A stretch of 64,000 nucleotides of DNA, from assembly GCF_016097555.1 (NCBI RefSeq), contig NC_054701.1, forward strand, positions 37,588,492-37,652,491. The letters run 5' to 3'. Source of the stretch: Gigantopelta aegis (lineage: Eukaryota; Mollusca; Gastropoda; Neomphalida; Peltospiridae). Shown here piece by piece: positions 2,915-61,817 of this stretch. The position numbers and the translations under genes are program-made. Numbering within the stretch: position 1 is the first letter of the stretch; each line of letters opens with the position of its first letter. Under the pieces are notes generated by a model. That model searched no databases. It saw only the letters and a program-made list of their open reading frames with translations, and was not told the DNA's origin.

Positions 2915-3384
2915 CGCGCACTGTAGTAGTTAACCATCCGTGATGTTTATATTTTCTTCCGAACAATTCTTGAACACAAACATCAAATCCACTCGGTAAC
3001 GCGAGATAAAAACATTTGCAAGACATCCATTAACGGCGTCCATGAGTAAAAAGTAACCGTTTAGCGGTAAATAATAAACAAAAGAATGGAGTTATTTGTG
3101 TTTTGTCTACATCAATGTGTCGAAAATAAAATGTGTTAATTCGTTCACTATGTATGCACCAATTCACATCGATAATAAAATTAGTAACTGATCGATAAAT
3201 GATTTTGGATAGCTACATCTACGCTTGAACACACGTCATTATTATATGTTTATATCACCTCAAACAAACGTACGGTAGAAACTATGGAGGAAAAAAGCTT
3301 CAGAATGATCATGGTTAAGATTTCTTTGTTTAATTTATTTCAGTCACTTAGATATATAATTTTTATATGTTTAATTTAATACTT
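2915..3384. other. No feature seen
   Basis: AT-rich spacer. No long open frame, repeat or inverted structure was recognised here. Confidence 0.5.
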
Positions 3385-3570
3385 ACTTACTTACTTATGC
3401 CTATTTGCTCGCTGGGAACTTAGACCATCGAGTAAGGAACGCCACTGTTTGTGGCCATCTTCTCCATCTCTCTCCTGGTGTAACCCATCTCCTTTGTTTC
3501 TTTTTCGGTGTCTCTTTGCCAGTTATTCCGTGGCCTGCCTCTTCGTCTCTTCCCTGGGGGTTCCATGTGA
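3385..3570 (-). mobile_element. 3' end of a second, unrelated LINE
   Basis: On the - strand this encodes a basic RRGRPRNNWQRD segment near 3545-3510. In a shifted frame it then encodes a WRSLLDGL-type C-terminus followed by a stop, a pattern typical of the end of LINE ORF2 proteins. A short (TAAG)n tail follows at 3400-3385. Only the last 180 bp or so remain, with at least one frame shift. Confidence 0.6.
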
Positions 3571-3825
3571 TGACTTTTTAATTTAATGAGTGCACAATAA
3601 TTATATATTTTGGGTGTAATAAACTCTTAGCGGCTAGTGCTAAGTAAACTAACCTCTCCAGTTCTAACATTGGCATAGTCAGCATTTCGTATCGGCGGGA
3701 ACACCATTCCCCCACCCACCATTTGGCTACGCCTGGATCTGTTATTGTTAACATTGGAAAGGAAAGGAATGTCTGTTTAGCGATACAGCACATTTTAAAC
3801 TACTGCGTCTAAGATTATTTTTACA

Positions 3826-4623
3826 CTTAGGCAACACTTTTTTATTTTTTCGGATTACGGATCTGCCGACGTTAATTTTGCCAAAATGAAAAAAAAAAAA
3901 AAATCAGTTTTTAGCCAATTTTTTATTTTATTTTCCCGCCTACTTATGATTTTTACAGTGGCGGGGTCGGGAAATACGAAATAAATAAAAATACAAGACT
4001 TGAAATATAAAGCTAAATCAGTATTTACAAGCCCACCCAATTCCAACTCCGTAAGATTTTGTCGGTGCACTTTCAGCTTTGATCCGGAAGTATTTTATTT
4101 GGTGCGGTGCAACCTGGAGTGGAGTCCTGTGGTATATAGTAAAAAATGGAATTCAATCCCATCGTGTCAAACGGAGTGCCGAAGAATCGTTCTCTCCTTT
4201 TGACATTTCATGATAATGAATTAATATAGTGTTTTTAAACACAAACGTTATTTAAATTTTATCTTGATGATATTTTTCCCATTAAAAGTAGTGCCGACAC
4301 AAGTATGCTTTGAAATGGTGAATTTTATTAAATACTTTAATTTATACCCAACTCCGACTTTGCTGAAATTTCATTTCATCTGTCGACAAGTTCGGAATTT
4401 AGACCAAACGCATTCAGTATGGCCAATATACGTCACAAAACAACGTGTTGATGTCATTGTTTTGACTGAAATCGGTTGTCTTACAAAAAATATCCGTAAA
4501 CAAAAAACAAAAAAATAACAACAGGAATTGGGTGAATTTTATTGTTATTTTTATTCCATCCTCCGACATTGCCTCCTTCAAAAAAAAATCCGTAATCCTA
4601 AAAAAGAAGAAGTGTGGCCTTAG
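3826..4623. mobile_element. Non-autonomous TIR element, about 0.8 kb
   Basis: The left end (about 3826-3862: CTTAGGCAACACTT then TTTCGGATTACGGAT) matches the reverse complement of the right end (4590-4623: CTAAGGCCACACTT then TAGGATTACGGAT). These form imperfect terminal inverted repeats of about 35 bp. No transposase gene lies inside, so it is probably a MITE-like element. The target duplication was not resolved. Confidence 0.6.
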
Positions 4624-4625
4624 TA

Positions 4626-4658
<33 letters not shown>

Positions 4659-4692
4659 ATAATAATAATAATAATAATTATTATTATTATAT
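4624..4692. repeat. Self-complementary ATT/AAT microsatellite
   Basis: A run of ATT units switches to AAT units and back to ATT, so the halves can pair into a hairpin. It lies immediately right of the TIR element ending at 4623. Confidence 0.85.
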
Positions 4693-4814
4693 AGATGTAT
4701 CGAAAGAAAAGTAGTGTTGATTTAACAATATCTCAGCACATTTAAAACTATTAAAGCCACATAAGTTGTTCGTACCGAGAAGCAGGCAAGCGTTTCGTTT
4801 CGAATATACTTAGT

Positions 4815-5145
4815 TTTGTGATTATATCCAATTAACGTTCAAGCACGCCGTCATGAGCACACACCTCAGCTATTTTGACAATCTGTCCAGGACAGTGGGT
4901 TAGTAATTTGTTGTTAGTGCTGAGAGATAAGTCAACTGTACTGGCCTTACACCTATTCATTGAATCGTTAAACCGGGTTGGAACTGGTACTGGGATGCGG
5001 ACCCAGTACCTACCAGACTTAAACACAATAGTTTATATGCACTATTCCACACTATACAATTCGATATATCAGTCTTATGATACAAGCTGGGGTAGTCCGT
5101 AATATGCAAGCGCTTGACCAATGAGCTACTCTGACCATGACCTAA
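4815..5145 (-). mobile_element. SINE, second body type
   Basis: On the - strand this has a tRNA-like start (GTAGCTCATTGGTCAAGCGC near 5135-5110), a box-B-like GGGTCCGCATCCC near 5000, and a body ending in a segment homologous to the SINE at 58934-59186 (shared blocks CAGCTATTT/CAGCTATCT and GTTCAAGCACGC). It is more diverged than that copy. Confidence 0.65.
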
Positions 5146-5169
5146 ATTATGCTTACTGTACGTTTCTCG

Positions 5170-5516
5170 ATATTAATTAAAGGAGAGGACAATTAAGGCA
5201 TTTGGCCTGGTATGCATATTCAACGATATATAATGCACATTATTGCTACATATAATCGTATAGTTAATTAATATAACGGTTAAATGTGACGGCTATTATA
5301 TATAACGGGCGCAGCCATTTTGTATCTTCTCAGTGAATACGCCCTCTGGCGAGCTGGTGGTTACGTAATACTTAACGCGTAACGCCAGGAATGAGCCTTA
5401 GAACTAGAGAAACCCAATCTACCTGGTTTTTGCGGGATGATAAATAGTCATGCATTGCAATGTTCTGTAATAATACACATCTCAGTAAGCCAGCAATAAG
5501 TATATCAATATATATA
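5170..5516. repeat. Left part of an older dispersed repeat
   Basis: Blocks such as GCAGCCATTTTG, TGCAATGTTCTGTAATAATA and CTCAGTAAGCCAG recur in the same order at 58620-58820. The right part resumes at 7118, so the Tc1-like element split it. No coding sense was recognised. Confidence 0.65.
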
Positions 5517-7117
5517 CTACTCAAAAGAATTTAAGGGTCAAAAATTTATAACCAAATAAGTTTCAGAGTGTATTAGATTGATGATGTAAACTACACCAAA
5601 ATGTTTATTTATAGTTCCATATTTACAAAAAAACACAAATAAACGTCACTGTATACAAGAAAGTCACATGACATGCTGTCAAAGTTGAAGGTTGTCAAAC
5701 ATGGATTTTACACATTAGAACATTCGTTTAATAGTGTGTAAATCCACCCCTGGCGCGAATACACTCTACACATCGTTGCCTCATGCTGGTGATCAGACGT
5801 CTGAAGAACTCTTGGGGAATGGCCTGCCACTCTGCCATAAGAAGTTGACCCAGATCATGAAGGTTGGCCGGAGGGGCATGGTTATCCCGAACTCTCCTGC
5901 CTAATTCGTCCCAGGCGTGCTCTATTGGGGCCAAGTCAGGCGAATATGCTGGCCAATCCATCCTGGCGATACCTTGTTGTCTGAGAAAGTCCGTTACCAC
6001 CCTGGCGCGGTGGGGTCTGGCATTGTCATCCTGCAGAACTGCCCCGCCGCCAATCTGCTGAAGGCCTGGGAGAACCAACGGCCGGATAATCTCATTCAGA
6101 TAGCGGATTCCATTCAGATTGCCATCCACCACATAGAGGGGGGTCCTGTGGTGGATAGAGATGCCGCCCCACACCATGACGCTGCCACCACCGAACCGGT
6201 GACGTTGTCTAACGTTAACGTCAGCGAAGCGCTCCCCAGGACGTCTGTAGACACGAACCCGACCGTCGTTGAACTGGAGACTAAACCTGGACTCATCAGT
6301 GAACATCACTCGACCCCACTGAACACGTTGCCACCGCAGATGAAGTGTGCACCAGTGACGTCTGGCCGTTCTGTGACGTGGTAGGAGTGGTGGTCGAACA
6401 GCCTGGCGACGGCAGCGTAGATTATTGGCTCTCAGACGATTGCGTATGGTTTGATCAGACACTCGAGTTCCAGTCGCAGTCCGCAGATTGTCACGTAATC
6501 GGCGTGCAGTGGTTGTGCGTTGACGTAGAGCCATATTGGTGATGTAGCGGTCCTCTCTATTTGTAGTGCTTCGGGGTCTTCCCGAACGTGGACGATTTCG
6601 AACAGAATTCGTTGCTTGGTACCGTTGCCACAGTCGGCCAACGACACTCTGACTGACACCAAGTCTCAGAGCAACATTTCTTTGCGTATTGCCATCCTGA
6701 AGCCAAGCAATAGCCCTTCCTCGATCTTCGATAGTCAGTTGACGTCGTACCATTGTCGAATTTGGAGTGTGCACCGTACACGAACGCAAGCTCCAATTAT
6801 ACGGAAATTCAGCATTGGGAACATGGAATACACATGCAAAGCTTGCAAATGAAGCGCTTTGTGAAAAAGCAAGTTATGGGCACTTAGCAGACCTTTCGCT
6901 TTCGCCCTAAGTTACGTGCAAATGTAAGCATGTTTTCGCCATTAGAACTAGTCGACAGTGTCAATGACATTGGATTTTAATTCATTTATGGGTTGCTTAG
7001 ACCCACTTTCGTCAAAATGGAACAATACCATGCGTGACATTATGGTCTAGCTAATATAATTGACATTCAGAAAATAATGTCGAAAATATCGTCTGACCCT
7101 TAAATTCTTTTGAGTAG
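5517..7117 (-). mobile_element. Tc1/mariner-superfamily transposon, apparently intact
   Basis: The two ends are perfect 24-bp inverted repeats beginning CTACTCAAAAGAA (5517-5540 and 7094-7117), each flanked by TA, the target duplication of this superfamily. The 1601-bp element holds one uninterrupted transposase gene on the - strand. It sits inside an older repeat whose other copy (58.6-59.7 kb) lacks it, so insertion came later. Perfect ends plus an open gene suggest a young copy; activity is inference. Confidence 0.95.
5728..6753 (-). CDS. Tc1-like transposase, complete (341 aa)
   Basis: A cut-and-paste DNA transposase. The N-terminal half has two helix-turn-helix units (LTIEDRGRAIAWLQDG..., VSQSVVGRLWQRY) linked by a GRPRS hook-like motif (RSGRPRSTT), which bind the inverted repeats. 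The catalytic domain shows all three acidic residues in context: MFTDESRF, then LQDDNARPH, then SPDLAPIEHAWD, with 34-residue DD34E-type spacing typical of Tc1. The GGGSVMVWGG block is also present. I chose the methionine at 6753 (MVRRQLTIEDRG) because homology starts there; the frame stays open to 6789, giving 353 aa with an extra 12 residues. There are no stops or frame shifts. GC content is clearly higher than the surrounding DNA, which fits recent arrival. Confidence 0.95.
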   Translation of the reverse strand: MVRRQLTIEDRGRAIAWLQDGNTQRNVALRLGVSQSVVGRLWQRYQATNSVRNRPRSGRPRSTTNREDRYITNMALRQRTTTARRLRDNLRTATGTRVSDQTIRNRLRANNLRCRRQAVRPPLLPRHRTARRHWCTLHLRWQRVQWGRVMFTDESRFSLQFNDGRVRVYRRPGERFADVNVRQRHRFGGGSVMVWGGISIHHRTPLYVVDGNLNGIRYLNEIIRPLVLPGLQQIGGGAVLQDDNARPHRARVVTDFLRQQGIARMDWPAYSPDLAPIEHAWDELGRRVRDNHAPPANLHDLGQLLMAEWQAIPQEFFRRLITSMRQRCVECIRARGGFTHY

Positions 7118-8353: not shown

Positions 8354-8602
<249 letters not shown>

Positions 8603-27300: not shown

Positions 27301-30300
27301 AATTTGTTTCAGTAGTTCCGTTGATGTCTGTGTGGTCACGAGATCCCAAAGATACATCTTTCTTTATATCATGAGTACCATTGCTACAAAAGAAACATCC
27401 ACATCCATTTGATAAAAATACTTTAGTATTATACAAATGTCATGTATTTATTTATTCTTTAATTACAATACTAAGTCTAGTATTAATTCTAAGCATTTGT
27501 AAAAAAAACCCACCATCTACCGGGTATGTTGGAAGACACTGATAAAATTATGCTTCAATAACTTTTACAACAAAGAAAATTGTTAAACATATACTATCTA
27601 CACTTCAGAAGAGTCATTTTATTAATTGCATACTATTATCAGGATTTTTCACCTATGTTTTTAGAATGCGATAATCGCCATCATTCCCCACCATTCCCAA
27701 GGGCGAAGTCATTTTTATTCACAATTTTGGATTAAAAAATTCCCTGTCTGAATGTAAAATATTCCTTTTGTTTATTATTATATACAGATATATTTTCAAA
27801 TCTATACGTAACACTTGACAAACACCCAAACCATTTCATAATGCAAAATAGATATTATAATATTAATTTGAATAAAAACAAGTATACGTCATTGAATACT
27901 ATTACTCTTTTAGATTCTAACTTCGTAATAAGATGTTTTTGAAATAAAACTGAAAATTCTCTCTTTTTTTTGTAAAATGATGCTAAAATTCCCAAAGTTA
28001 ATAGCCATGGGTGTCAAGTCAAATTTTAGAAATAAAACCCTGATTACATGCTTAACCTTCTGGATACTGCAGGCGAGATATCTCACCCGACATCACAAAA
28101 GTCGACATACTGTACACTGTATACATTGCATTCCCCAATTCATATTTCTCGCCGTTTAGCACGACATCAGAAATAATAAGAGAACAGGAAATAGATTAAT
28201 TAAGAGTATGACAGCTTTAGATTTTTGTTTTTCAATGGAAAATACCATGGTTTTCGGCAAGTATTTTTGCTTGACAACAATGCAGAATGTCATGGTCATT
28301 CTAAGGAATTGATAGCTGATTGTGACAGCTAATTTGATAATGAAAATAATGAAATATTGGGACATGAATCGTGGTTCATTTGCTAAAAAAAACATCTGAT
28401 AAAAAAAAACTCAGTTATTGGGAATAATGAACATAAATACTGGACATCTGGCCACAAATGCCTATACGTAAATGCAACTTTTTCTATTTTTACCCAATTT
28501 TAATCCACATTAACTGATCTAAAATATGCTAAAAATTAGAAAAACACATGAAAATAATACTTACCTATTCATATATAACTTTATTTTATGTATTTATAAA
28601 ACATTTAAGAGAAAATATGTTGAGTAAAAGTTATACCCATCCACGTGGTTTTTGTCAAAAATTAATATAGTAGTCAGAAGGTTATAGTCCAGGCAATCTA
28701 GCTAATTTTTTCACTCAACTTGGAACAAATTGCAACAGAATTTTTTTCACCACAGTGCATTTCTGTGAGGTCCCCAGAACACCATATTAAAAGTCCCAAG
28801 AAATCCCTTCAGGGTAAATACGTCTAATTTGCATAAATCCAATATGGCCACCAAATATCAATAATATACCATATCTTTGCTCTCAGGTGACATATTTGAG
28901 TGACTTCAAGTTCTAGAATGGGATTATTTGTCTCAAGGATGCATTTGGAGTGCATCTGAATTTGATTGGATGAAAAATTCATTTGCATAAATCCACGATG
29001 GCCGACAAATTCAAGTATTATCAAAATCAAAGACAACAGCTTAGAAAATTCCTCAAAGCTGAGCGAACTGGTAACTGGAGATTACACCTCCAAGCCATAC
29101 ACGAAATGTTGCCTTACTTTGCAGCAGCCGGACATACCCTATATGCAAAGTGTGCATACGTATACCTACAGACAATGATCCAACTTCAAGCCTTGCATCC
29201 AGATGTCCATCAGAAATTCGATGGAGGATACCACGTGGTGAGGCGTAGTGACAGGTATTGGGCAGGTCTGTCGACAGATCTCATCACTGAACAGGTTTTG
29301 ATGAGGTGTGTGAAGACTCGCGGTGGCTTGACAAGGGGAAAGGGAATGACAGACACTCAACGATTGGTGTGAGTCCTATCCATGCCAACATGTGCAAGTA
29401 TCAACGAGGCCATACAAAAGTTCAGCAGTGTTTGATACGAAACCAGTGATCAACATAAGGAGCAGCACAAGGACATGTCAGCAGCTAGACAAGCTAGAGA
29501 TGTTAGTGACACGCTTGATCTTATCAGCTATCTGAAAGAGAGAGATCCATTTGTTCAGAATGCATCACTGGTTAACATTGCTAATGGTATGGCAGCCCAG
29601 GAAGAGGTCAACGTTGAAAGATCAAGAGAGGTTGGAGAACATATTTTAGCATCCATGGTTGGGAAATCTGTGGACAATTTTATCTTCCAGAAAGTTGACC
29701 AAGCAGTAACACTTGGTTCGAAAACAGTTGTCAAGATCAAGGGGGAATCTGTGAAAGTAGATCCACAATTGCTATTAAGGAGGTTGATTTTAGTTGGTGA
29801 GCACCAGGAAGATCTACCATCATTGTTCAAGTATGAACTCTGTACTCACCCCCCCTGCATTGTTTGAATCGGCCTCCCTTCCACTGCAGGCTAATAAAGC
29901 TGTCCTTGCTGATGCTCTATGGATGGTTGTGGAAATCAAAAGGGGTGCAAAGAGAACCTGGTGGAGATATCCAGTATATCATTGATGGTGGTGCTCTACT
30001 CCATCGAATACCATGGCCTAGAGGTTCCACATATGACAGTGTGTGTGAACTGTATGTTAGATATGTGACACAGAAATATGGTGCTGCTGCCGCCGCCATT
30101 GTCTTCGATGGCTATACAGATGATCCAACAACCAAGGATGCCACACACCTGAGAAGAACAGGGATGTGCACAGGTGTTACAGTGCACTTCACTGGTGGAA
30201 TGGTTATTCAATCCAAGAAGGACGAATTCTTGAACAATACCACGAACATCCACTATCTCAGCGACAAACTAGAGCGGGCTGGGTGCAGCACAGATCACGC

Positions 30301-33300
30301 AAAGCATGACGCTGATCTGCCTATTGTCCAAACGGCTGTCGCATCTGCCAGAAGCAAAGACACCATTGTGATTGGGGATGACACAGACTTGCTTGTTCTT
30401 CTATTACATCATGCTGTCATGGATGCCCATGAGTTGTTCCTGGCACCAGAGCCCAAGCGAGACTCAAGGAAGAACATGATATGGTGCATAAAGCAATGTA
30501 AGGAACGTCTTGGTCCAAATGTTTGTGATCATATACTCTTCATCCACGCAATTCAAGGGTGTGATACAACCTCTCGCTTATTTGGATTAGGAAAGGGTTT
30601 ATCATTGAAGAAGATCCTGAGTGATGCTCTGTTCTGCCAACAGGCTAAGGTGTTCAGTGCGGCAAGACAAATTGCCAAGGATATCATTGCAGCAGGAGAG
30701 AAGGCATTGCTGTCTTTATATGGTGATGCCAATGAGGAAGAACTGAATAGGTTACGATACAAGCGATTTTGTGATAAGGTTGCTAAGAGTACATCTTATG
30801 TGGAACCACGGAATCTACCACCAACCTCAGCAGCTGCCAGGTTCTATAGTTTACGTGTATACTATCAGATGATGGAGTGGAAAGGGACAGCTACTGACAT
30901 GAAGCCAGAAGATTGGGGATGGCACGTGTTAGATGGACGATATCTACCAATTCAGACTGACCAGCCTGCAGGGCCATCAGAACTACTGGATATCATCTGC
31001 TGCAGTTGTAAAGAAGACTGTAGTACAAGAAAGTGCACTTGCCGAAAATATGATCTGCCTTGCACTGCTGTGTGCAGAGTATGCCATGGTACATGCTGTA
31101 CCAACTCGCAGAAACCAGATTTCACTGATGAACTCGATGAACTTGACATGGCTTTTGAGTAGAACAATGTTACACCTAGGCAACATTGGTGAACTATAGC
31201 ATTAACACATGTACAACATGGAAGGTCAGATAATACATGTAGCCTCTAGAAACTGCCGGGATCATCCAATGGTGTCATCCAATCATATTCAAATGTCCTT
31301 CAAATGCATCATTGTGATAAATAACCCCGCCCTAGAACTTTAAATCACTCAAATATGTCGCCTGAGAGCAAATATGGCAAAATACGTGAATTTGTCAGCC
31401 ATCTCGGATTTATGCAAATGAACTTTTCATCCAATCAAAATCAAATGTCCTCCAAATGTATCCTTGTGACAAATAAACCAGTTGTAGAACTTGAAATCAC
31501 TCAAATATGTCACCTGAGACCAAATATATGGTATCTTATTGATATTTGGTGGCCATATTGGATTTATGCAAATGAACTTTTCATCCAATCAAATTCAAAT
31601 GTACTCCAAATGCATCCTTGAAGGAAATAACCCCATTCTAGAACTTTAAAACTCTCAAATATGTCACCTGAGAGCAAAGATATGGTATATTATTGATATT
31701 TGGTGGCCATATTGGATTTATGCAAATTAGACGTATTTCCCCTGCAGGGATTTCTTGGGACTTTTAATATGGTGTTCTGGGGACCCCACAGAAATGCATT
31801 GTTGTAAAAAAAATTCTGTTGCAATTTGTTCCATTTCAAACCTTACTTTGCCTGGACTATTAATATGGAACATAACTGAAGCACAGCAAAATCAATTGGT
31901 TGAGCTCTTCCATGGTGATTAGATTTCCCGTCCTTTCAAATACGAATTTATGGCTAAAATGCGACTATGCTTTTGTAATCCAACTCCTACATATAATTGG
32001 GTTTTGACTAGTACACAGTAAAATGCAGGATTGCACGGCAGTTGTTCTATTAAATGAGGGAGCAAAATATTGATTGAAATTATATACACTTATGATTTAA
32101 TTTATCCATTTAATTGGTCAACTGCTTTACAATCCCGACTTTACAGTTTTATCGATTTTAATTCTTACTCATATGAGTAGCCTTGGCCAAGATACCTGGA
32201 TTCATTGACTGCATAGTGTTTATCATAGTCAGCGAGAGACAACACATTGCTATCTCCACAGTCTTGATTCAAGCTTTCTTCACCATTCATCGTTCTTGGA
32301 GATTTTTTAACATGTATTTCATTGTTCTCATTGTCTGAAAGCATTCAAATACAAATAATACCAGTATGCATGTATGAACTTTACAAAACATAATAATTAT
32401 ATTAACTAACTTGCAAAATTTTAGGCTTTCATTACATACCAACCACTCTCACAAATTTCAATTTCCTCTCAAATAGTTTGAAACAAAATACAGGATACCA
32501 ATGCCTAATACAAATTTCTATTAAACAAATACTATATTATTAATATTTTAGCAGATGCTCACGAATCATACCTTTAAATCTCTATAGATTTCTAACACTA
32601 TCATACACATGAACAAATCAATAACATAGCTGAAGATAAATAATGACTACATGGCTTCATAGATTTCATTTTTTATAATGATATAATTGTTAAATTTAAT
32701 TAATATGACCAGTAAACACATTAAATTTTATTAATCAACCAATACAAGTATCACTGAAATATAGTAAGCATATATTTAAAAAAATGGAGGTACATAAAAT
32801 ATATTTTAACCAAATTGATTCATTGATTGTAATCTCAGGATTCTACATATCTATGCTTCGAGATTCAACATAAAAATCTTTGACTCCATTACCATATAAA
32901 CAGACTGCAGTTTCAGTACCGATTCATGTTTGAAATATAGTTTTAACAGGGGCCAGTGCATGGTAATACAATATGCACAACAAACAAGTGTTAATCAATG
33001 TTATTATAAATTTTGTGTTTGTTTGTTAATGAATCATGCAACATTTCAAGGCTTAAACAATACTAAAACATTCAATAAAAAAACGTAAAACAGAAACAAA
33101 TCAGATATGTGCAAAACTCAGCATATTAAATTTTATTTACTACATGTACATGTATGGCATAGGTCATGGTTTAATATACATCTGATTAAACCAGTGAAAC
33201 AGAAATAACCCATAACTGTAATATAGTAATGGTATACATGTACATGTATTTATAGGATATTATTTACCGGCCTCGGTGGCGTCGTGGTTAGGCCATCAGT

Positions 33301-36300: not shown

Positions 36301-39300
36301 AAAAAATCCTGGATCTGTGCCTGATTTTAGTAATTAAAAAGGCTCCATATGTTGTACAAATAATACAATGGCTGCAAACTCGGGATAAACCCTTTAAAAT
36401 GTAAAATAACACACACATATAATATTACCTTGTTGCCACAGTATGCTTGGTTTACCACGTGTCTTTTCCACCTCAAACCTGACAGCACTACTGTTAAAAA
36501 CAAATAATAATAACGTATTAGGAACTTTGTGACATTTCATTTTCTAAAAGCTTCCTAAACTTGGTTATCTCCTTTTATAGCAAGATAAAGCAATACTCAG
36601 GTCCAGGCTTTTGGACTAGTATGCATATTCAGCGATATTTAATGCACACTATTCCTTAATAATAATTGTAGTTGGTCATTTATCATTCAGTGTTATTATA
36701 GTTATGTACTTGTCATAATCTTAGAAAGTTCTAAACTTGGTTTTAAAGGTTAACTTTATGATAACATAGGTTAATAACAAAGGTTTTGCAAAGTTATAGT
36801 CAAATATCAAAAGATGACATAATATGTTTTCATTTTGATTTTATAAAATTTTGTGAAAATCTTGCTTTTGGCTAAATGGAAAAACGACTCTAGAACAGTG
36901 ACATAATTCGTGCGACTTTTCATAGACTGCAAATATGTAATGACAAACTTAAAATGTACATGAATGACATCAAGTAATGAATAATGATGTCATCTTTGAT
37001 TTCAAATAACGTTTCAAACATTTAGCATACATATTTTGTCAGACAAATTGCAATACGTAAGTGAAAGCAAAAGTAGGAACAACACTGTACTAATTATTGG
37101 AATACAAAGTACATGTATATATAGTAAAATAGATTTTAAACCATATAGATCATAGTTAAAGGGACATTTCTCAGTTTGCTTCAATTTTAAGAAGCTATCG
37201 ACTAACAAAGACTTTTTAACATTGTAATTACATATCAAATATATTTTTTCTGCATAAAATATTAGTGGCTGTATATTAAGCATGTTTCTGATCGTTCTAA
37301 TATTTGTACTAGGTTAAATTTAATTTAATTTCCTAAATATATTTTTTTTGTATGTACGAAATTATTTAAAGATAAAATCCAGTTTGGGCTTCTTACAAAT
37401 ATTAAGACGACCAGAAACACATTGAATTTGAACAGAAAATCCAGTTTCGGCTTCTTACAAATATTAAGACGACCAGAAACACATTGAATATACAGACACT
37501 GATATTCTAAACAAGGAAATATATTTAATCTGTAAGTTTAATAGTAGAAATATTTTATTAGTCGGAAACATCTTACAATGCAGCAAACTCAGGAATGTCC
37601 CTTAATAATTTTATTCTAATAATAATAATGTTTAATAACATAGATGATTTTATGGTCTTAAAGTGGATTACTTGAACAGTTTAAACAAGTAGGTTAAAAA
37701 ACTAAATGTTTTTAAAAATCATTTCAATTCAATTCACTTTAAAGAGCTTAATTTCTTTTTACTATTCATCATTCCTCCCAACCCCACCCCACCCCCAGTT
37801 ATTTGCTAGTAAAACAACACCCCTATCAGCTCTTTATTATTCAAAGATCCAATGGTAAAGGCTTCAAGGCTCGTATACAATTAATCCGAAATATATAATG
37901 AAGCACATAGCTTAAGGAAGCAAACACGTAATTGATTTAATCTCCAACAGTGAAATCAAGCAACTAGCAAAAAAACAAGAAGTAATTATTTCATACATCT
38001 ACTAATCAGTGAATATCATCAATAATTAATTGACAAACGAAAACAACAATGATGAAGAACTGCCAAATATCCAATTATTAAACAACTAACAAAGTAACAA
38101 AGTTGGAAGTAATGGAACCTACACTGAATCTATATTTACATTTGCTCTGGTAATTTTCAAGAAGATAATTAAACACAGTTTTGGTACACACAATTATGAA
38201 TTTAGGTTAATTGGTGGGGTAAGAGTACTGGTACTATGCAAGGTTCGATTAAGGTTTGGTTTGGTTTAGTGTGGTAAGGCATTCTATTGTATAGGGTAGG
38301 GTAGGGTAGGGTGGGATAGATTACTGGCCAAGGATAAGATAGCATATGGTCATGTTCAACAAGAATGTTAAAGGAATGTTGGTTTGGTCTGCCTGTAAAG
38401 TACATGTATTTGTATTTCCTGTAACAAAGACCATGAACACAATATTACTTTTCAGATGACATAGGTTTTATGCACTTACATCCAATCAAATGTCAGGATT
38501 TAGCTTGGCTTCTCAAAAATGAGAAGTGTAATTAAATCAAGCAAACTCGCTTAAGACAGATGCCCGCTGATTACAGGTTGCCACATATAAAGTCTTTAAA
38601 ATGTTTATTGTTGTTTCTTTTTGTTCTAATTAAGTTGACAATAAATCAACTTTCAACATGTCGGCTTCTTCAAAAATAATATAACTGGAATGTATTAATT
38701 TAACCGTTCTCAACTTTTTTTTTTTTTTTTACCATTTAATTATTTTATTCCAACTTCATATGATGTATTTTCATAGTAAGTGTCAAAGTTCATCTACAAA
38801 TGTCAAGCTTAGCCTACCCAGAGGCAATAAGATGCATACCAGAGCCTACCCAGAGGCAATAAGATGCATACCAGAGCCTACCCAGAGGCAATTAGATGCA
38901 TACCAGAGCCTACCCAGAGGCAATAAGATGCATACCAGAGCCTACCCAGAGGCAATTACATGCATACCAGAGCCTACCCAGAGGCAATTAGATGCATACC
39001 AGAGCCTACCCAGAGGCAATTACATGCATACCAGAGCCTACCCAGAGGCAATTACATGCATACCAGAGCCTACCCAGAGGCAATAAGATGCATACCAGAG
39101 CCTACCCAGAGGCAATTACATGCATACCAGAGCCTACCCAGAGGCAATTAGATGCATGCCAGAGCCTACCCAGAGGCAATTAGATGCATGCCAGAGCCTA
39201 CCCAGAGGCAATTAGATGCATGCCAGAGCCTACCCAGAGGCAATTACATGCATACCAGAGCCTACCCAGAGGCAATTACATGCATACCAGAGCCTACCCA

Positions 39301-42300
39301 GAGGCAATTAGATGCATACCAGAGCCTACCCAGAGGCAATAAGATGCATACCAGAGCCTACCCAGAGGCAATTACATGCATACCAGAGCCTACCCAGAGG
39401 CAATTACATGCATACCAGAGCCTACCCAGAGGCAATTACATGCATACCAGAGCCTACCCAGAGGCAATTACATGCATACCAGAGCCTACCCAGAGGCAAT
39501 TAGATGCATACCAGAGCCTACCCAGAGGCAATTAGATGCATACCAGAGCCTACCCAGAGGCAATTACATGCATACCAGAGCCTACCCAGAGGCAATTACA
39601 TGCATACCAGAGCCTACCCAGAGGCAATTACATGCATACCAGAGCCTACCCAGAGGCAATTAGATGCATACCAGAGCCTACCCAGAGGCAATTAGATGCA
39701 TACCAGAGCCTACCCAGAGGCAATTACATGCATACCAGAGCCTACCCAGAGGCAATTAGATGCATACCAGAGCCTACCCAGAGGCAATTACATGCATACC
39801 AGAGCCTACCCAGAGGCAATTACATGCATACCAGAGCCTACCCAGAGGCAATTAGATGCATACCAGAGCCTACCCAGAGGCAATTAGATGCATACCAGAG
39901 CCTACCCAGAGGCAATTACATGCATACCAGAGCCTACCCAGAGGCAATTACATGCATACCAGAGCCTACCCAGAGGCAATTACATGCATACCAGAGCCTA
40001 CCCAGAGGCAATTACATGCATACCAGAGCCTACCCAGAGGCAATTACATGCATACCAGAGCCTACCCAGAGGCAATTACATGCATACCAGAGCCTACCCA
40101 GAGGCAATTACATGCATACCAGAGCCTACCCAGAGGCAATTACATGCATACCAGAGCCTACCCAGAGGCAATTAGATGCATACCAGAGCCTACCCAGAGG
40201 CAATTACATGCATACCAGAGCCTACCCAGAGGCAATTAGATGCATGCCAGAGTAATACTTTCTTAACTGATACACAGGAAAGATGTCGGGACTGAATAGG
40301 TACTGTTATTCCTGAAGGTGTGACGGTCAAATGTTTGCTGAACCTTGTTGCTGTTGTTGAAAATATCTCTTTTATATAATAATAAATGTTTATTGTGGCC
40401 ACTTAAAGGTATACTGTCACGGATTTAAGGACCGTATTTCTCTAAAACTGGATAATAAATAAAAATTACATTAATTGTTGGAAACCAAATCTAGCTAAGC
40501 CATCACCGTAACTGGACCATGATAGAGCAATTTTAGTTTTTGAATTATGGACCATTGCCATAATTCAATTATTTTTACAAAATGTCATTAATAAATGGAG
40601 TATGGTGGTTATGAAGATGGTTGAATAAAGTACATTTAGGTACAAATCAAATTATTTTTGTTCAGGTAATACTTTGTTAGACCATTAAATAGGTCAGTGG
40701 TCTGTGACAATATGCCTTTAAAGGGACACACCCTAGTTACGGCCATTTGTTAACCATTACGGCGTTGTTTTTCGCTATTAAACCCCATTTTTTACAAATA
40801 AAATTGCACTTTACTTACATTTTATTATTTAGAATACACATTTCCATTCACCTGAAGTGCTTTTTGGTAATCCTGATGTTTGTAAAACCACGAAATGCAT
40901 TTTTTGCATTTTTTCACAAGACGTTCTGTCGAGAAAAAACCGTTAAGCGAGGTCCAATCTATTTTTAGAGGGGATATTTCCATTTCAATGTCACAGACGT
41001 TGGTATATCACGTGACCGTTATCATTTTGGTTCGGTTTGTTTTCTCGTGCACGGTTTGCGCAATCAACATCCGATTTGTTGTTGTTCATTTGTGAGATTT
41101 TTCTTCACAGTTCGTGAACATTTTCAGTAACAGTAAAAGTTCAGACAAGTAAGTATCTCAATACAAAACATTACAAACCCTTAAAACCAATAATTTTGCT
41201 AAGTCTTACGATATCTGGAGAGGGGATACAACCAGGACAGAACAGTTGGAACATGTCCAGGAGAGGTGAAATGAACGCACCCCAAGTCTGTGAAATTTGT
41301 CGTGACGTAGGCATTGATGTGCTTCGAGCGACATTTACCGGTGACATCAGAATACTAACTTTCAAAATTATTTCAAGCAATTGGGACATGGGGATTCCCA
41401 TGGTATTTATCGATATAAAACCTGCTTTTTCACTCCATTTGATAAAAACGTGATCTAAGTGTGTTACAGGTTTGTAGATTAACCAAATTATAATTTATTT
41501 TCGCTGGATGGAACTAGGGTGTGCGGCTTTAATACAGGTATTTTAGCGATTTGGGATCGGATTTAGGTGGCCACTGTCTGTGTTAGACAGATGACTGCTT
41601 ATTATGAGTGCACTTACATTAAAACTCGTTTTGGAGGGACAAAAGTGGCAGTTTACGGTAGGTGACCGCTGATTACAGGCAACCACTAGGACAGGTTTTA
41701 CTGTGTACTCACCATGGTGTCAACTTGTTATTCGCTACAGTAACTAAAATTCACCAATAAGTGCTTAATTATTGTCTGTCTATATTACTTCATAAATCTT
41801 GAATTTTGGTCAACATTATGAAACCAAATCTATCAAAATGCTAGTAACTGGATTTTTTTAATCACCTTAATCCACTTCAACATTTAGAAACACCACTAGG
41901 CTAAATCCCTTGCATTTAGTACATAAAAGGTCATGGTTGTGAGACAAACAAGGCAACAGATGAGACACACTGCACATGTTACTTACTCCAACATGTCTTT
42001 GCTCCATCTCCATTCTTTCAGTCCAGGCAGCCTGTCATTGGACATGGCGTTCAGGAGAACCATACTGCACAGCTCAAATGTACATTTATATACGCACAGA
42101 AGATAATGTTCACTGATATAATAATTCAAACAACTGCAGCTATATTGTCAGTCACATTTTATATCAGTACATGTAGCTCATGGCCTACAATCATCAAAAA
42201 CAGAATGTAGATTTAACAAACACAGAACAAAACAAAAAAAAATCTATTTTGTATTGAAAGCAAAAAGTGACAAAGACTTTGATTAGGAACCACATCAGAA

Positions 42301-57463: not shown

Positions 57464-60400
57464 ATGAGTTTTGGGTATTTATATTTTTAAAAAGCTATAT
57501 TAAAAACTAAACCATGTAGTATATGTTTGTTGTTACCGTACTGAATGACTGACAAGTGTCATATGAATTTTATTTTAAAAATTTATGACTGGTTCCTACA
57601 TCTTTTGCCGTTACGGCGTTAGGCATGTGGAATTGACAAAGTTACTTTGTGTTAAATTTTTCACATAAAACTGACCTTATTTGTAATTTTGTAATAATGC
57701 CATGATGTTAATGGTTCAGGATCTCTAATTGGTACCAAAGAGTCGGTATCGGAAAGTCGCATTGCATGATACAAACTACGGTCAACGACAGTCACTTTTC
57801 GCACCCATGTTTTGTCTTTGTACACAATAAATATAACATATCCAATTGTAACTTTTTGATATGATATATTTGACAAAAGGTACTTCCTTTTATTTCTTTG
57901 ATCTTTTAAAATTAAACTTAACATTTTGTCCAGAATTATAAACAAAACATAAAAATATACCCACCTGTAAACAAAGTAGTCTGCTGGTTATAGAATTTTG
58001 ACAGGTGTCGAAGCATTGTAATAATACAGCTAATTTTGAATTTGAATGACGTCAGTTTTCCAACGACGTCACTTTACATCTCCTTATTGATTTTGTTTTG
58101 TTTGAACATTATTAATGCACCTGGATGTGTTTGAAGAAAATCTTGTAATTAAAAAATTGTACCATTTACGAAATTAGGATTTCAAGTGAAATTATGGTGA
58201 GATATGCTATATTTATGCCAAAACAAGGATGCAAAAAGTGACTTGTCGACCTTATATAGTGCACAGGGCACATTATGTCAATACTTTTCTTAACACATTC
58301 TATGTCCCTTCGGACGGGATACAATCGCTTGTTATCTACAGAAATGATGCAACAACAACAAAAAAGCTTCCATCATATGATGAACTTCATGACATCAGTT
58401 CCTGAAAGTTTATCCCACATTTCTGAAGAAAAAAAATTAGAAGTGGAATAATGTAACATAATCTAACGTCATGACACTTACTACTTAAGATATAAAGTAA
58501 TCGCCCATACTTTGGAGGCTTCCATCCCTCTTGAAGAGTATTCCATTAAAAGGAGAGTAATTTATTGTAGTCGTTAACAAAGTATATTGGTATATTTAAT
58601 TAATAAAACACAAAAAACCCTGATGACATATAATGTGGGCACAGCCATTTTGGTCGATCCCACAGAATCAGCCCTCAGGGGAATAAGTAGTTACATTTAT
58701 ACTTAATGCATCATTTAGAACTGAAAAAACAAATGTAGTTGGTCTGCTGATTTTTGTGGAAAGACGAAACGAATGCTTCGCAATGTTCTATAATAATATT
58801 CATCCCAGTAAATCAGAAATAATTATATTGTTTTCGTATACAAAATAAACCACCATTCTCAAACTGGCTACAAAACTAAATAATTGTCTGACTACCAGGT
58901 ATGTATCATGTTTTTTCTATGAAGAAGTGATGTTTCATTTCATTTCAACTTATTTTCATGCTTATATCCAATGAATGTTCAAGCACGCTGCCCTGGGAAC
59001 ACACACCTCAGCTATCTGGGCTGTCTGTCGATGACAGTGGGTTAACTATTAGTTGTTTAGTCGTTAGTTGGTTAGTCATTAGTTAGAGAGAAGAGGGTGT
59101 AGTGGCCGTACACCTACCCATTGAGCGAACCCTGTACCTACCAGCCTGTAGTCCGATGGCTTAACCACAGCGCCACTGAGGCCGGTAGAAGTGATGTACT
59201 TCAGAAACCTACATGCTAAAATGATAAAATTAACCATTTACTTAGTTAATTGGTCTATTCTTTTAGTTGCCTTTACCTGTGATATTTGTTTAGCAGGTGT
59301 GTGTATTAGATTACCAGACATTGCAATTGTCTGGTAGCTCTGCCACTGTCTGGACATAAAAGAGAATTGTGTATGGTATTACTAACTAAGGGTATTGTGA
59401 TGTATTTTTTATCAATCTGTTGTGTCATGACATGTCCTAATAGTAGTTTTTGTTTAATATAATGGGGAAAATATATGGGCTTATGTTATTAGCATGTAAT
59501 GGATCATTGACATCAATGTGCACCAGTGGTGCCATTAAACAAAACAAACTTTGCAATGGATCATGACCCGTGTAACCATTATTGATCAATGAAATTAAAA
59601 CATTCTCCAACAAATAACCTATAACCCCTAAAATGGTAATGGACAAATTATCAAGAAACAGGGTTTATTACTGTCATTTATAATTCTGTAATGTAATGGC
59701 CACTTTAGATGTTGGGTGATAATAACAGTGATCTTGTTAAATTACATTAAAATATTTATGCATTCACAGACTTAAAAATGTAGATGGAGCTCAGAGATGT
59801 GCAGTATAATCGGTGTACTGCAATATAAATTTTGAACAACACGTATCACAACATTTTTCTAACTTACTGATATATTGTGCTTATAATATATAATTTAATT
59901 TTGTATACATTTTAGTCACACACATTATGTTTCCAAACAAAAACTACCTGTTTTTTTGGAACGAAACGTTGTTGACCGGTGTGTCATTTTATTAAATTAT
60001 ACTAAATAATATAGCACTTTATAAAGTCTAATAATTGAGAATTAGTCTTCCCAGTATATTGTGTTACATATCGAAATTCAGGTTCCTGCATCGCAGTATG
60101 AAAATTTTGGCAATGCCCATCATTATTAAACCTGTAACACCACCAAAACTAGCAAAATATTCATACTTTTGGATTTTTAATAGTGAATTATATAGATTGC
60201 AAGCTGTTTGTATCCATTTAATAATACATTTTCATTAAATATTTGTAATACCTTGAGTTGAATATAGGCAGTAAATTCAAGATGAACTGCCAGCTATGAT
60301 CATGATTATTGATACACTCTTACTGCAAAGTTATTTTCATTAAATATTTGTAATACCTTGAGTTGAATATAGGCAGTAAATTCAAGATGAACTGCCAGCT

Positions 60401-61817
60401 ATGATCATGATTATTGATACACTCTTACTGCAAAGTTATTTTCTGTTTTTGACAGGTCTTCCTTAAAGTTCAATGTAGAATCTCACAATGGAAAACCATC
60501 TATACTGTGGCAACAAGGTATGGATCTTTAATAACATTATTGTATAATTATATATTATTCATTGACTTTTTATCTGGGGTGATATCATACATAATGGGGA
60601 GATTACAAAATAAATTTTTAAAATGTGTATAATATGTCAAAGGAGTAATGTTTTTGACATTTTATATGCAGGTTATTGATACATAAGATGCCCTATACAA
60701 ATGATTTTTTTATATATACCAGGTGCGTTTTGTACTTAATTTGTTTTATTTATTTTTCAGAAAAACAACAAAAGAAGCCAAGAAAAGTGAGTGGATTCAG
60801 TTGTTGGACATTTTTGTTTTTATGTATTTGCATGTAAATAATGTAGATATTTACATGTAATAATAAGTAGTTTTAGATTCTGCTCGAATACATTTTATAA
60901 TTTGAGATTTTGGTTTATCTAAAATATTTTTTTAATAAAAAATAATATGTGGATATCTGTTTTATAATTGTAGTTTTTATATGCCCGTCTTTGATGGGTC
61001 ATATTATGATATAATGTTGTCTGTATGTCCATCTGTAAATTCCAGTCAATTCATATATGATCATGAAACAAATGCAAGTACATTTGGAATGGCAGTGTGA
61101 CACGTACCATAATTAGGTCACCACAACCTACTTTTCACATATTACAGCACTGAAAGGAAATCTTTGTCGGTGTTATATCTCCCTATCACTTCATATAGGA
61201 TCATCAAACCTTGCATGCAAATACAACTAGGGATGGCGGTGTGTTGTCACCAAGACCTACTATTTAACACCCAGCCAGTGCACCACGACTGGTATATCAA
61301 AGGCCATGGTATATGCTATCCTGTCTGTGGGATGGTGCATATAAAAGATCCCTTGCTGCATTAAAAAAAATGTAGCGGGTTTCCTCTGATGACTACATGT
61401 CAGAATTACCAATAACCGATGATTAATTAATCAATGTGCTCCAGGCATGTCATGTACCTCACAAATACTCTTGTTTAGTAATAAATTACAACGTAAAGGA
61501 CACATTTATTTTCTTACAGTATGGCTACAAAAGCAAAGATCTTCGACACCCAGTAAGACAACCTGCAGATGAAAACTTCCACAATAATAAAAATGCAGAA
61601 GAGCAAAATGATGAGAAGAAAGAAGAGAAAAAAGAGAAGCGAAAAGATTTCATAAAAAGAAATCGAGAAAAATTCAACGAGAATAAGAAACTTGGATCAA
61701 ACAGTAACCAGGCAGAGAAGGGAACTGTGACTTTAACTCAAGATCAACTTAATGCCATATTAGAATCAGTGGGCAAAATTGCTGCTGGCAAAGGGAAAGG
61801 TCTTCGAATTAATATTG
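57464..61817 (+). CDS. CCDC66-like protein, copy B (N-terminal part, continues right)
   Basis: Exons 57464-57474 (MSFG), 60456-60517 (SSLKFNVESHNGKPSILWQQ), 60761-60786 (EKQQKKPRK) and 61520-61817. The last begins YGYKSKDLRHPVRQPAD, goes through a Lys/Glu-rich stretch (KKEEKKEKRKDFIKRNREK), and contains LTQDQLNAILESVGKIAAGK. Lengths 11, 62 and 26 nt and all phases equal those of copy A. The fourth is 298 against 277 nt. The N-terminus MSFG-SSLKFNVE fits vertebrate MNLGDGLKLE. The first exon uses a weak donor (GTATTT) and is inferred. The final donor GTAATT is in phase 1, so later exons lie beyond 64000. No stop or frame shift is seen. Likely a centrosome/cilium protein. Confidence 0.83.
58590..58933. 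repeat. Older dispersed repeat, second copy, left part
   Basis: Same block order as 5170-5516 and 7118-7180 (GCACAGCCATTTTGG, GCAATGTTCTATAATAATA, CCCAGTAAATCAG, ATACAAAATAAA...CTGGCTACA) but without the Tc1-like element. Confidence 0.65.
58934..59186 (-). mobile_element. SINE, head shared with 2503 but with a different body
   Basis: On the - strand the head is GGCCTCAGTGGCGCTGTGG then GGCTGGTAGGTACAGGG. The body then differs (GTAGGTGTACGGCC, CACTGTCATCGACAGACAG, GTGCTTGAACATTC). An 11-bp target duplication AGAAGTGATGT occurs at 58923-58933 and 59187-59197. Confidence 0.9.
59198..59700. repeat. Older dispersed repeat, second copy, right part
   Basis: TTAGTTAATTGGTCTAT, ACCTGTGAT, GCAGGTGTGT, CCCCTAAAAT, GTAATGGACA as at 7245-7420. 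Interrupted by a SINE stub at 59508-59554. Confidence 0.65.
59508..59554 (+). mobile_element. 47-bp SINE stub with target duplication
   Basis: Only the SINE tail is present (CAATGTGCACCAGTGGTG then CCATTAAACAAAACAAAC). It is bracketed by AATGGATCAT at 59498-59507 and 59555-59564, so it is an extreme 5'-truncated insertion rather than a decayed copy. Confidence 0.85.
59701..60227. other. Copy B intron 1, distal part
   Basis: AT-rich intronic DNA with no recognisable feature. Confidence 0.5.
60228..60443. repeat. Perfect 105-bp tandem duplication next to a splice acceptor
   Basis: The unit from ATTTTCATTAAATATTTG to TACTGCAAAGTT occurs twice without a difference (60228-60332, 60333-60437), plus 6 bp. 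The second copy ends about 12 bp before the acceptor AG of exon 60456-60517, so it fills the branch-point region. Confidence 0.95.
61010..61267 (+). repeat. Dispersed repeat of the CATATGATCATGAAAC type
   Basis: TGCCCGTCTTTGATGGG, TTCATATATGATCATGAAAC, then a second related half TTCATATAGGATCATCAAAC. This pattern is common in molluscan spacers. A SINE follows at once. Confidence 0.5.
61268..61455 (+). mobile_element. Headless SINE in copy B intron
   Basis: CAGCCAGTGCACCACGACTG, CTATCCTGTCTGTGGGATGG, AAAGATCCCTTGCTGC, CAATGTGCTCCAG. The tail is cut short. It lies 65 bp before exon 61520-61817. Confidence 0.85.
61520..61817 (+). CDS. CCDC66-like copy B, exon with LTQDQLNAILESVG
   Basis: 298 nt, phase 0 in and phase 1 out, acceptor TTTTCTTACAG. 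A lysine/glutamate-rich segment (residues about 55-85) replaces the Ser/Thr-rich segment of copy A, while both flanking motifs are kept. Confidence 0.92.

Follow-up and report, generated by a model that had tools for sequence, protein, structure and literature searches.

A FEN1/XPG-like nuclease gene in a Gigantopelta aegis transposon is the 3′ part of a larger transposase-nuclease gene, very probably of the AcademX type

In a 64,000-nucleotide stretch of the genome of the gastropod Gigantopelta aegis (contig NC_054701.1, positions 37,588,492 to 37,652,491 of the forward strand; hereafter the window, numbered from its first letter), a 3175-bp element at positions 28685-31859 carries a gene for a FEN1/XPG-like nuclease that is followed by a cysteine-rich (Cys) block. 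Our analysis indicates that this element very probably derives from an Academ transposon of the AcademX type, as a non-autonomous copy with an internal deletion and further mutations. Its nuclease open reading frame (ORF) is the 3′ part of a larger gene and no whole gene. An initial annotation, made from the sequence alone, had regarded the nuclease as the only gene of the element and had proposed an unclassified type of DNA transposon.

Results

Ends, target duplications and family copies

The element has matched inverted ends TAGTCCAGGCAA and is bordered by a perfect TTA duplication (Table 1). A long inverted repeat of 290 nt, which is 93% complementary, lies further inside, and the spacers between this repeat and the terminal 12-mers (24 nt on the left, 14 nt on the right) do not match. 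The inverted ends, the TTA on both sides, the nuclease motifs and the Cys-rich block of the initial annotation were all found, and its coordinates are exact.

We used the left end as a DNA query against the animal's own genome (1.15 Gb), which gave at least 70 matches (40 of 98 candidates scored). Ten places were fetched and the eight with both ends were analysed, while L014 and L017, with one end in the fetched piece, were left out. All eight copies show a perfect 3-bp duplication that never extends past 3 bp, a result with a chance of 1 in 64 per copy. The element is indeed a DNA transposon, as had been proposed. The same terminal inverted repeats (TIRs) flank the other seven copies, and the duplication is not TTA at each site but 3 bp of variable sequence (TTG, TGT, TTA, TTA, ATG, ATA, AAC and TTA). 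The copies measure 1943, 2798, 3175 (the window copy), 3354, 3722, 5050, 5546 and 5727 bp, and any two of them are 92.8-98.7% identical over their longest shared piece. Compared to the longest copy, L010 (5727 bp), six copies carry internal deletions, each of them distinct, and the differences of the 5546-bp copy are chiefly small gaps and a single sub-repeat.

The window copy lacks most of the gene

The window copy matches L010 over positions 1-335 at 97.9% and over positions 2928-5727 at 96.6% identity. The sequence lost in between encodes the Cys-rich N-terminal region and the transposase-like core in the longest copy; the transposase-like part is therefore absent from the window copy because about 2.6 kb have been lost. 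In the three long copies L010, L012 and L016, pieces of the Cys-rich N-terminus, the transposase-like core and the nuclease follow each other in that order. The idea of a single-gene, unclassified element thus does not stand, as the ORF is a 3′ part and longer copies with the same ends hold a transposase-like part upstream of it.

The remaining ORF (29864-31162, 432 aa from a TTG) contains the motifs VFDG, ADLPIV, GDDTDLL and GCDTTS...GLGKG, followed by the Cys block. Its nuclease has four residues fewer than the other 13 aligned sequences (columns after N99). The upstream remnant is interrupted in frame by TGA at 29370-29372 and again at 29433-29435, and frameshifts near 29850 and near 29930-29955 split it from the nuclease frame. 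With two in-frame stops and two frameshifts upstream of the nuclease, the window copy could presumably move only in trans.

Uninterrupted relatives in other families

A genome search with the window nuclease (103 of 1903 candidates scored) revealed at least 107 matches, in agreement with the initial view of a multicopy gene. Four of these matches (L049-L052) lie within open frames of 1469-1489 aa, in which a Cys-rich N-terminus, a transposase-like core, the XPG nuclease and the Cys block follow one another. The best match outside the window family, L053, is an uninterrupted ORF of 955 aa. L049 and L050 are nearly the same protein (99.5% identity), so that L049-L052 represent three families; identity falls to about 40% between this pair and L051 or L052, and the latter two share 61%. 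In these other families a single alignment spans the transposase core, the nuclease and the Cys block, with the middle-region motifs TLDGxxTFHGM, FLPxID, TFDQPLYWKA, GSGxxE/D and DLxIEQ. The suggestion that the nuclease may be a mobility gene is supported by its fusion to a transposase-like part in these four uninterrupted ORFs.

Inverted repeats surround the ORF in L049-L053. The complete elements L049, L051 and L052 measure 5.1-6.0 kb and encode one protein of about 1470-1490 aa. Their ends, and those of L053, are of the TAGT... type and begin TAGTCTAAGC (L049), TAGTCCAGTC (L051), TAGTAGGGTC (L052) and TAGTCCGGG (L053). Four of the five elements of other families show a 3-bp duplication (TAA in L049, TAT in L051, GTA in L052 and TAT in L053), with ends picked by scanning ranges and thus less strictly than for the window family. 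By eye, a motif like AACAAATTGCAA recurs with variation some 30-50 nt inward from the ends of five families (the window family and L049-L053), which makes it a candidate subterminal binding site of the transposase.

Kinship and conservation of the nuclease

A profile of 14 nuclease regions matched human EXO1 sequences in PDB (E=0.00039 to 0.0076). These were the sole PDB matches below E=1, the next one being at E=1.7, and from D53 on the window protein aligns with the VFDG, EAD, EDSD and GCD of EXO1 in order. The assignment to FEN1/XPG-like nucleases is therefore supported by profile comparison. The window protein alone gave no PDB match and no curated XPG model in Pfam at E<=1, and XPG_I matched three of the 14 aligned sequences weakly (best E=0.025). 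The likeness to FEN1/EXO1/XPG nucleases is a remote similarity, consisting of the EXO1 profile match with motifs in order; unlike them, the nuclease described here is fused to a transposase-like part and a Cys block. In this block, seven Cys are invariant and two nearly invariant among the 14 aligned sequences. The label CXC (tesmin/TSO1), which it had initially been given, was not sustained, as the only CXC model to appear was preSET_CXC, at E=0.61 in one of the 14 sequences. A search of NCBIfam yielded nothing useful, and when a nuclease piece and a transposase piece were used to scan viral contigs, nothing was confirmed.

The ordered acidic positions D12, D53, D120/D122, D144/D146 and D205 of the window protein align with those of its relatives in the 14-sequence alignment, and all seven are kept in the uninterrupted ORFs L049-L052. 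The initial annotation had considered that TIR-flanked copies with a transposase, and a nuclease that is a chance passenger, would speak against its proposal. The former were found; the latter does not apply, because nuclease and transposase-like part form one fused protein, in which all seven acidic residues are preserved. In the comparison of L051 with L052, the proportions of non-synonymous (pN) and synonymous (pS) differences are 0.233 and 0.801 in the nuclease; for the transposase part the values are 0.208 and 0.718. As synonymous sites are saturated in this pair, the pN/pS ratio is only rough, but constraint on the nuclease is of about the same strength as that on the transposase part. 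L049 and L050 differ by six synonymous and eight non-synonymous changes, which are too few to address selection.

Linkage of transposase and nuclease loci

In a genome search with the transposase part (94 of 614 candidates scored), at least 102 matches clustered to 87 loci, and the nuclease matches, at least 107, clustered to 98 loci. Of the 87 listed transposase loci, 44 are followed within 6 kb by a nuclease locus on the same strand, with a spacing of 1310-2527 bp in 38 of the 44. No other arrangement of transposase and nuclease occurs among these 87 loci. Missing partners mean little here, because both lists give best-scoring candidates only. Four of the 43 unlinked transposase loci were fetched (L062, L063, L064 and L065): L064 has a nuclease that is frameshifted, L065 (G000:C12:35630800-35633700) has lost the nuclease core and retained the C-terminal Cys part, and in L062 and L063 the fetched sequence runs into N. 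Frames of 2101 and 3237 aa in the transposase match list were rejected as artefacts of N runs.

Empty sites, which the initial annotation had proposed to look for, were found for two elements. For L051, an adjoining repeat unit matches the joined flanks at 95/97 bp with one TAT. For L010, two paralogous sites (92-93%) are gapless at the junction and have one 3-bp copy each, TGT as in L010 in one and TAT in the other.

The transposase core and DUF6589

A search of the genome for the Pfam family DUF6589 gave 36 matches. One of the proteins, L056 (G000:C6:19559092-19559973), lies above the cut-off (E=9.9e-15, 54.6 versus 27 bits) and also matches L050 over its residues 372-923 (BLASTP E=2.5e-23; hhalign probability 99.2). 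The identity between the L056 group and the Academ-type core is about 22%. Some DUF6589 proteins, namely those of the L056 group, are thus related to the Academ-type transposase core. L056 and L058 (G000:C1:22169389-22170258) show, by eye, an XPG-like tail with DTDVLLLAL and TGCDTTG motifs; the tail of L056 alone reached an hhalign probability of 9.4. The two possibly form a second nuclease-bearing group, with a related transposase core and an XPG-like tail by eye, and yet separate. Fusion of XPG to a DUF6589-like core would accordingly occur in two groups within the genome, the second of which was recognised by eye. The DUF6589 proteins L054 and L059 gave no direct link to the Academ-type proteins (hhalign E=0.24). 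L054 (G000:C1:20461085-20462629), the best DUF6589 match, contains, within its DUF6589 match, a weak match to a PHD finger below the cut-off (E=0.00072).

Coordinates and other features of the window

Table 1 Features of the transposon copy in the window. The table indicates the feature, its position in the window, the strand and the basis of the assignment.
Feature	Position	Strand	Basis
Left target-site duplication TTA	28682..28684	.	Seen directly in window sequence
Left TIR, outer 12 bp TAGTCCAGGCAA	28685..28696	+	Sequence match to right end
Left long inverted repeat, pairs with 31544-31833 (93% complementarity)	28721..29010	+	Repeat comparison
Motif AACAAATTGCAA in left long inverted repeat	28724-28735	+	Sequence
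Internal deletion junction; ~2.6 kb of L010 (element positions 336 to ~2903-2927) gone	29019..29044	+	Alignment to L010
Coding-region remnant between transposase core and nuclease	29020..29864	+	Mapped against longer copies
Open frame for nuclease plus C-terminal Cys block (403 aa, then stop)	29951..31162	+	ORF list, alignment
FEN1/XPG-type nuclease core: D12, D53, D120, D122, D144, D146, D205 (numbering from 29951)	29984..30616	+	Alignment, profile
C-terminal Cys block	31001..31099	+	14-sequence alignment
Three 154-bp sub-repeats, right inverted repeat region	31275..31727	+	Repeat analysis
Right long inverted repeat	31544..31833	-	Pairs with 28721-29010
Right TIR, outer 12 bp, reverse complement of TAGTCCAGGCAA	31848..31859	-	Sequence
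Right target-site duplication TTA	31860..31862	.	Seen directly in window sequence

The left flank of the element (about 28555-28690) is a dispersed repeat. Of its 40 listed matches, 38 are to other places in the genome; they are 82-89% identical and stop close to the point of insertion. Elsewhere in the window, an uninterrupted 381-aa ORF on the minus strand (5728-6873) resembles, by eye, a Tc1/mariner transposase, and three ORF pieces on the minus strand (41-2096) resemble the reverse transcriptase of a non-long-terminal-repeat (non-LTR) retrotransposon, likewise by eye. Tandem repeats comprise a 32-bp minisatellite of 45 copies with 97% matches and open frames running through it (38811-40252), a pure (AC)123 repeat (8355-8600) and 2.1 copies of a 105-bp unit with 100% matches (60228-60443).

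Discussion

The Academ superfamily and its AcademX lineage were reportedly treated by Kapitonov and Jurka in 2010 and by Kojima in 2020. The nuclease of AcademX is of the XPG type and its C-terminal Cys-rich finger is named Cys8; the layout of AcademX beyond duplication and nuclease is taken here as general background. According to PMC10045372, AcademX duplications are 3 or 4 bp long and those of AcademH 9 or 10 bp, and the length seems to be tied to the encoded nuclease (AcademX) or helicase (AcademH). For 100 curated bivalve Academ elements an average of 5565 bp is given (PMC10294476), and Academ is counted among the DDD/E superfamilies (PMC9587614). Among the literature matches listed, no paper paired Academ with XPG in the sense meant here.

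The element fits AcademX in each tested feature, namely architecture, duplication and length. It shares with AcademX a nuclease encoded together with a transposase, a 3-bp duplication, a length of about 5.5 kb, TIRs and a C-terminal Cys-rich block. The window copy differs as a deleted and mutated derivative; we found no difference in kind. AcademH belongs to the same superfamily according to PMC10045372, where it is given 9 or 10 bp duplications and a helicase, in contrast to the 3 bp observed here, and L050-L053 matched no helicase family of Pfam at E<=1.

Several observations weigh against this assignment. It was made against published descriptions, and no transposase family was among the Pfam matches. 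DUF6589 remained below the Pfam cut-off (L050, E=0.0052 at residues 608-830; a piece of L010, E=0.02) and was not listed for L051, L052, L053 or the pieces of L012 and L016. The candidate DDE triad (D452, D601 and E868 in L050) is a guess from conservation. In the window's own family, the coding regions of the three long copies L010, L012 and L016 are all broken by frameshifts or stops, and none of them has an uninterrupted ORF. L050 shows no clean duplication, and one of its ends reads AAGT. Acidic positions of the nuclease are lost in some of the 14 aligned regions: L028 and L030 have lost DAD and L025 has Y in place of its first D, VFDG is changed to VFVG in L030, and GCD to GCN in L029. 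Single-sequence structure prediction for the window protein reached a predicted local distance difference test score (pLDDT) of 36.5, too low to be of use. Finally, the hope for an empty site was disappointed for the window copy itself, with none among the 40 candidates scored, and the same was true of L009 and L011 (40 candidates scored, the list being mostly filled by a dispersed repeat from the L009 flank).

Could the 3.2-kb form instead be complete, a separate nuclease-only transposon type with the XPG-Cys protein as its recombinase? The nuclease frame is indeed the only long open frame in the window element. We consider this very improbable, given that longer members of this family share its ends and hold the transposase part, that four elements of other families fuse this part and the nuclease in one uninterrupted ORF, that the window copy retains a broken upstream coding piece, and that the other short copies are deleted differently, as derivatives would be. 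The TTA that flanks the window copy had suggested TWA duplications and PIF/Harbinger. An origin in this or another TWA-duplicating superfamily, with the nuclease as cargo, is hardly credible: other duplications read TTG, TGT, ATG, ATA and AAC in the window family and also GTA and TAT, no Harbinger family was among the Pfam matches at E<=1, and the nuclease lies within the same ORF as the transposase-like part.

A superfamily of its own near Academ, which would share the XPG fusion and the 3-bp duplication while its transposase had a different root, is unlikely. It would accommodate the weak match of the transposase core to DUF6589 and the comparison with AcademX by description, whereas the length of the duplication, the nuclease and the size of the element match what the literature describes for AcademX or Academ. 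We therefore retain the assignment to AcademX as very probable.

For an AcademX element, the following sequence of events can be envisaged. The N-terminal and/or C-terminal Cys regions would bind the element ends, for which AACAAATTGCAA is the candidate subterminal site. The transposase core, with D452, D601 and E868 of L050 as candidates, would then cut and join with a 3-bp stagger, and the XPG domain may trim or cut a strand or flap left by the DDE chemistry. A complete relative would have last mobilised the window copy in trans. Going further, it may be speculated that DUF6589 represents the DDE-type, RNase H-like catalytic core found in Academ-like transposases, and that the fused XPG is a recurrent and selected part of transposition; we regard the chances of this proposal as even.

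Together, the data identify the nuclease-Cys gene as a fragment of a gene for a joint transposase-nuclease protein and remove a supposed new class of mobile elements. The nuclease belongs to a transposition protein and not to a new mobile type, and the window element is an ordinary but well-documented derivative of the AcademX type. The same explanation probably applies to many other nuclease-Cys matches in the genome. The uninterrupted relatives in the same genome (L049 and L050) make the role of XPG in transposition testable, and the link to DUF6589 may give a role to a Pfam family of unknown function. If the proposal is true, such elements would finish cut-and-paste transposition with a flap-type nuclease of their own.

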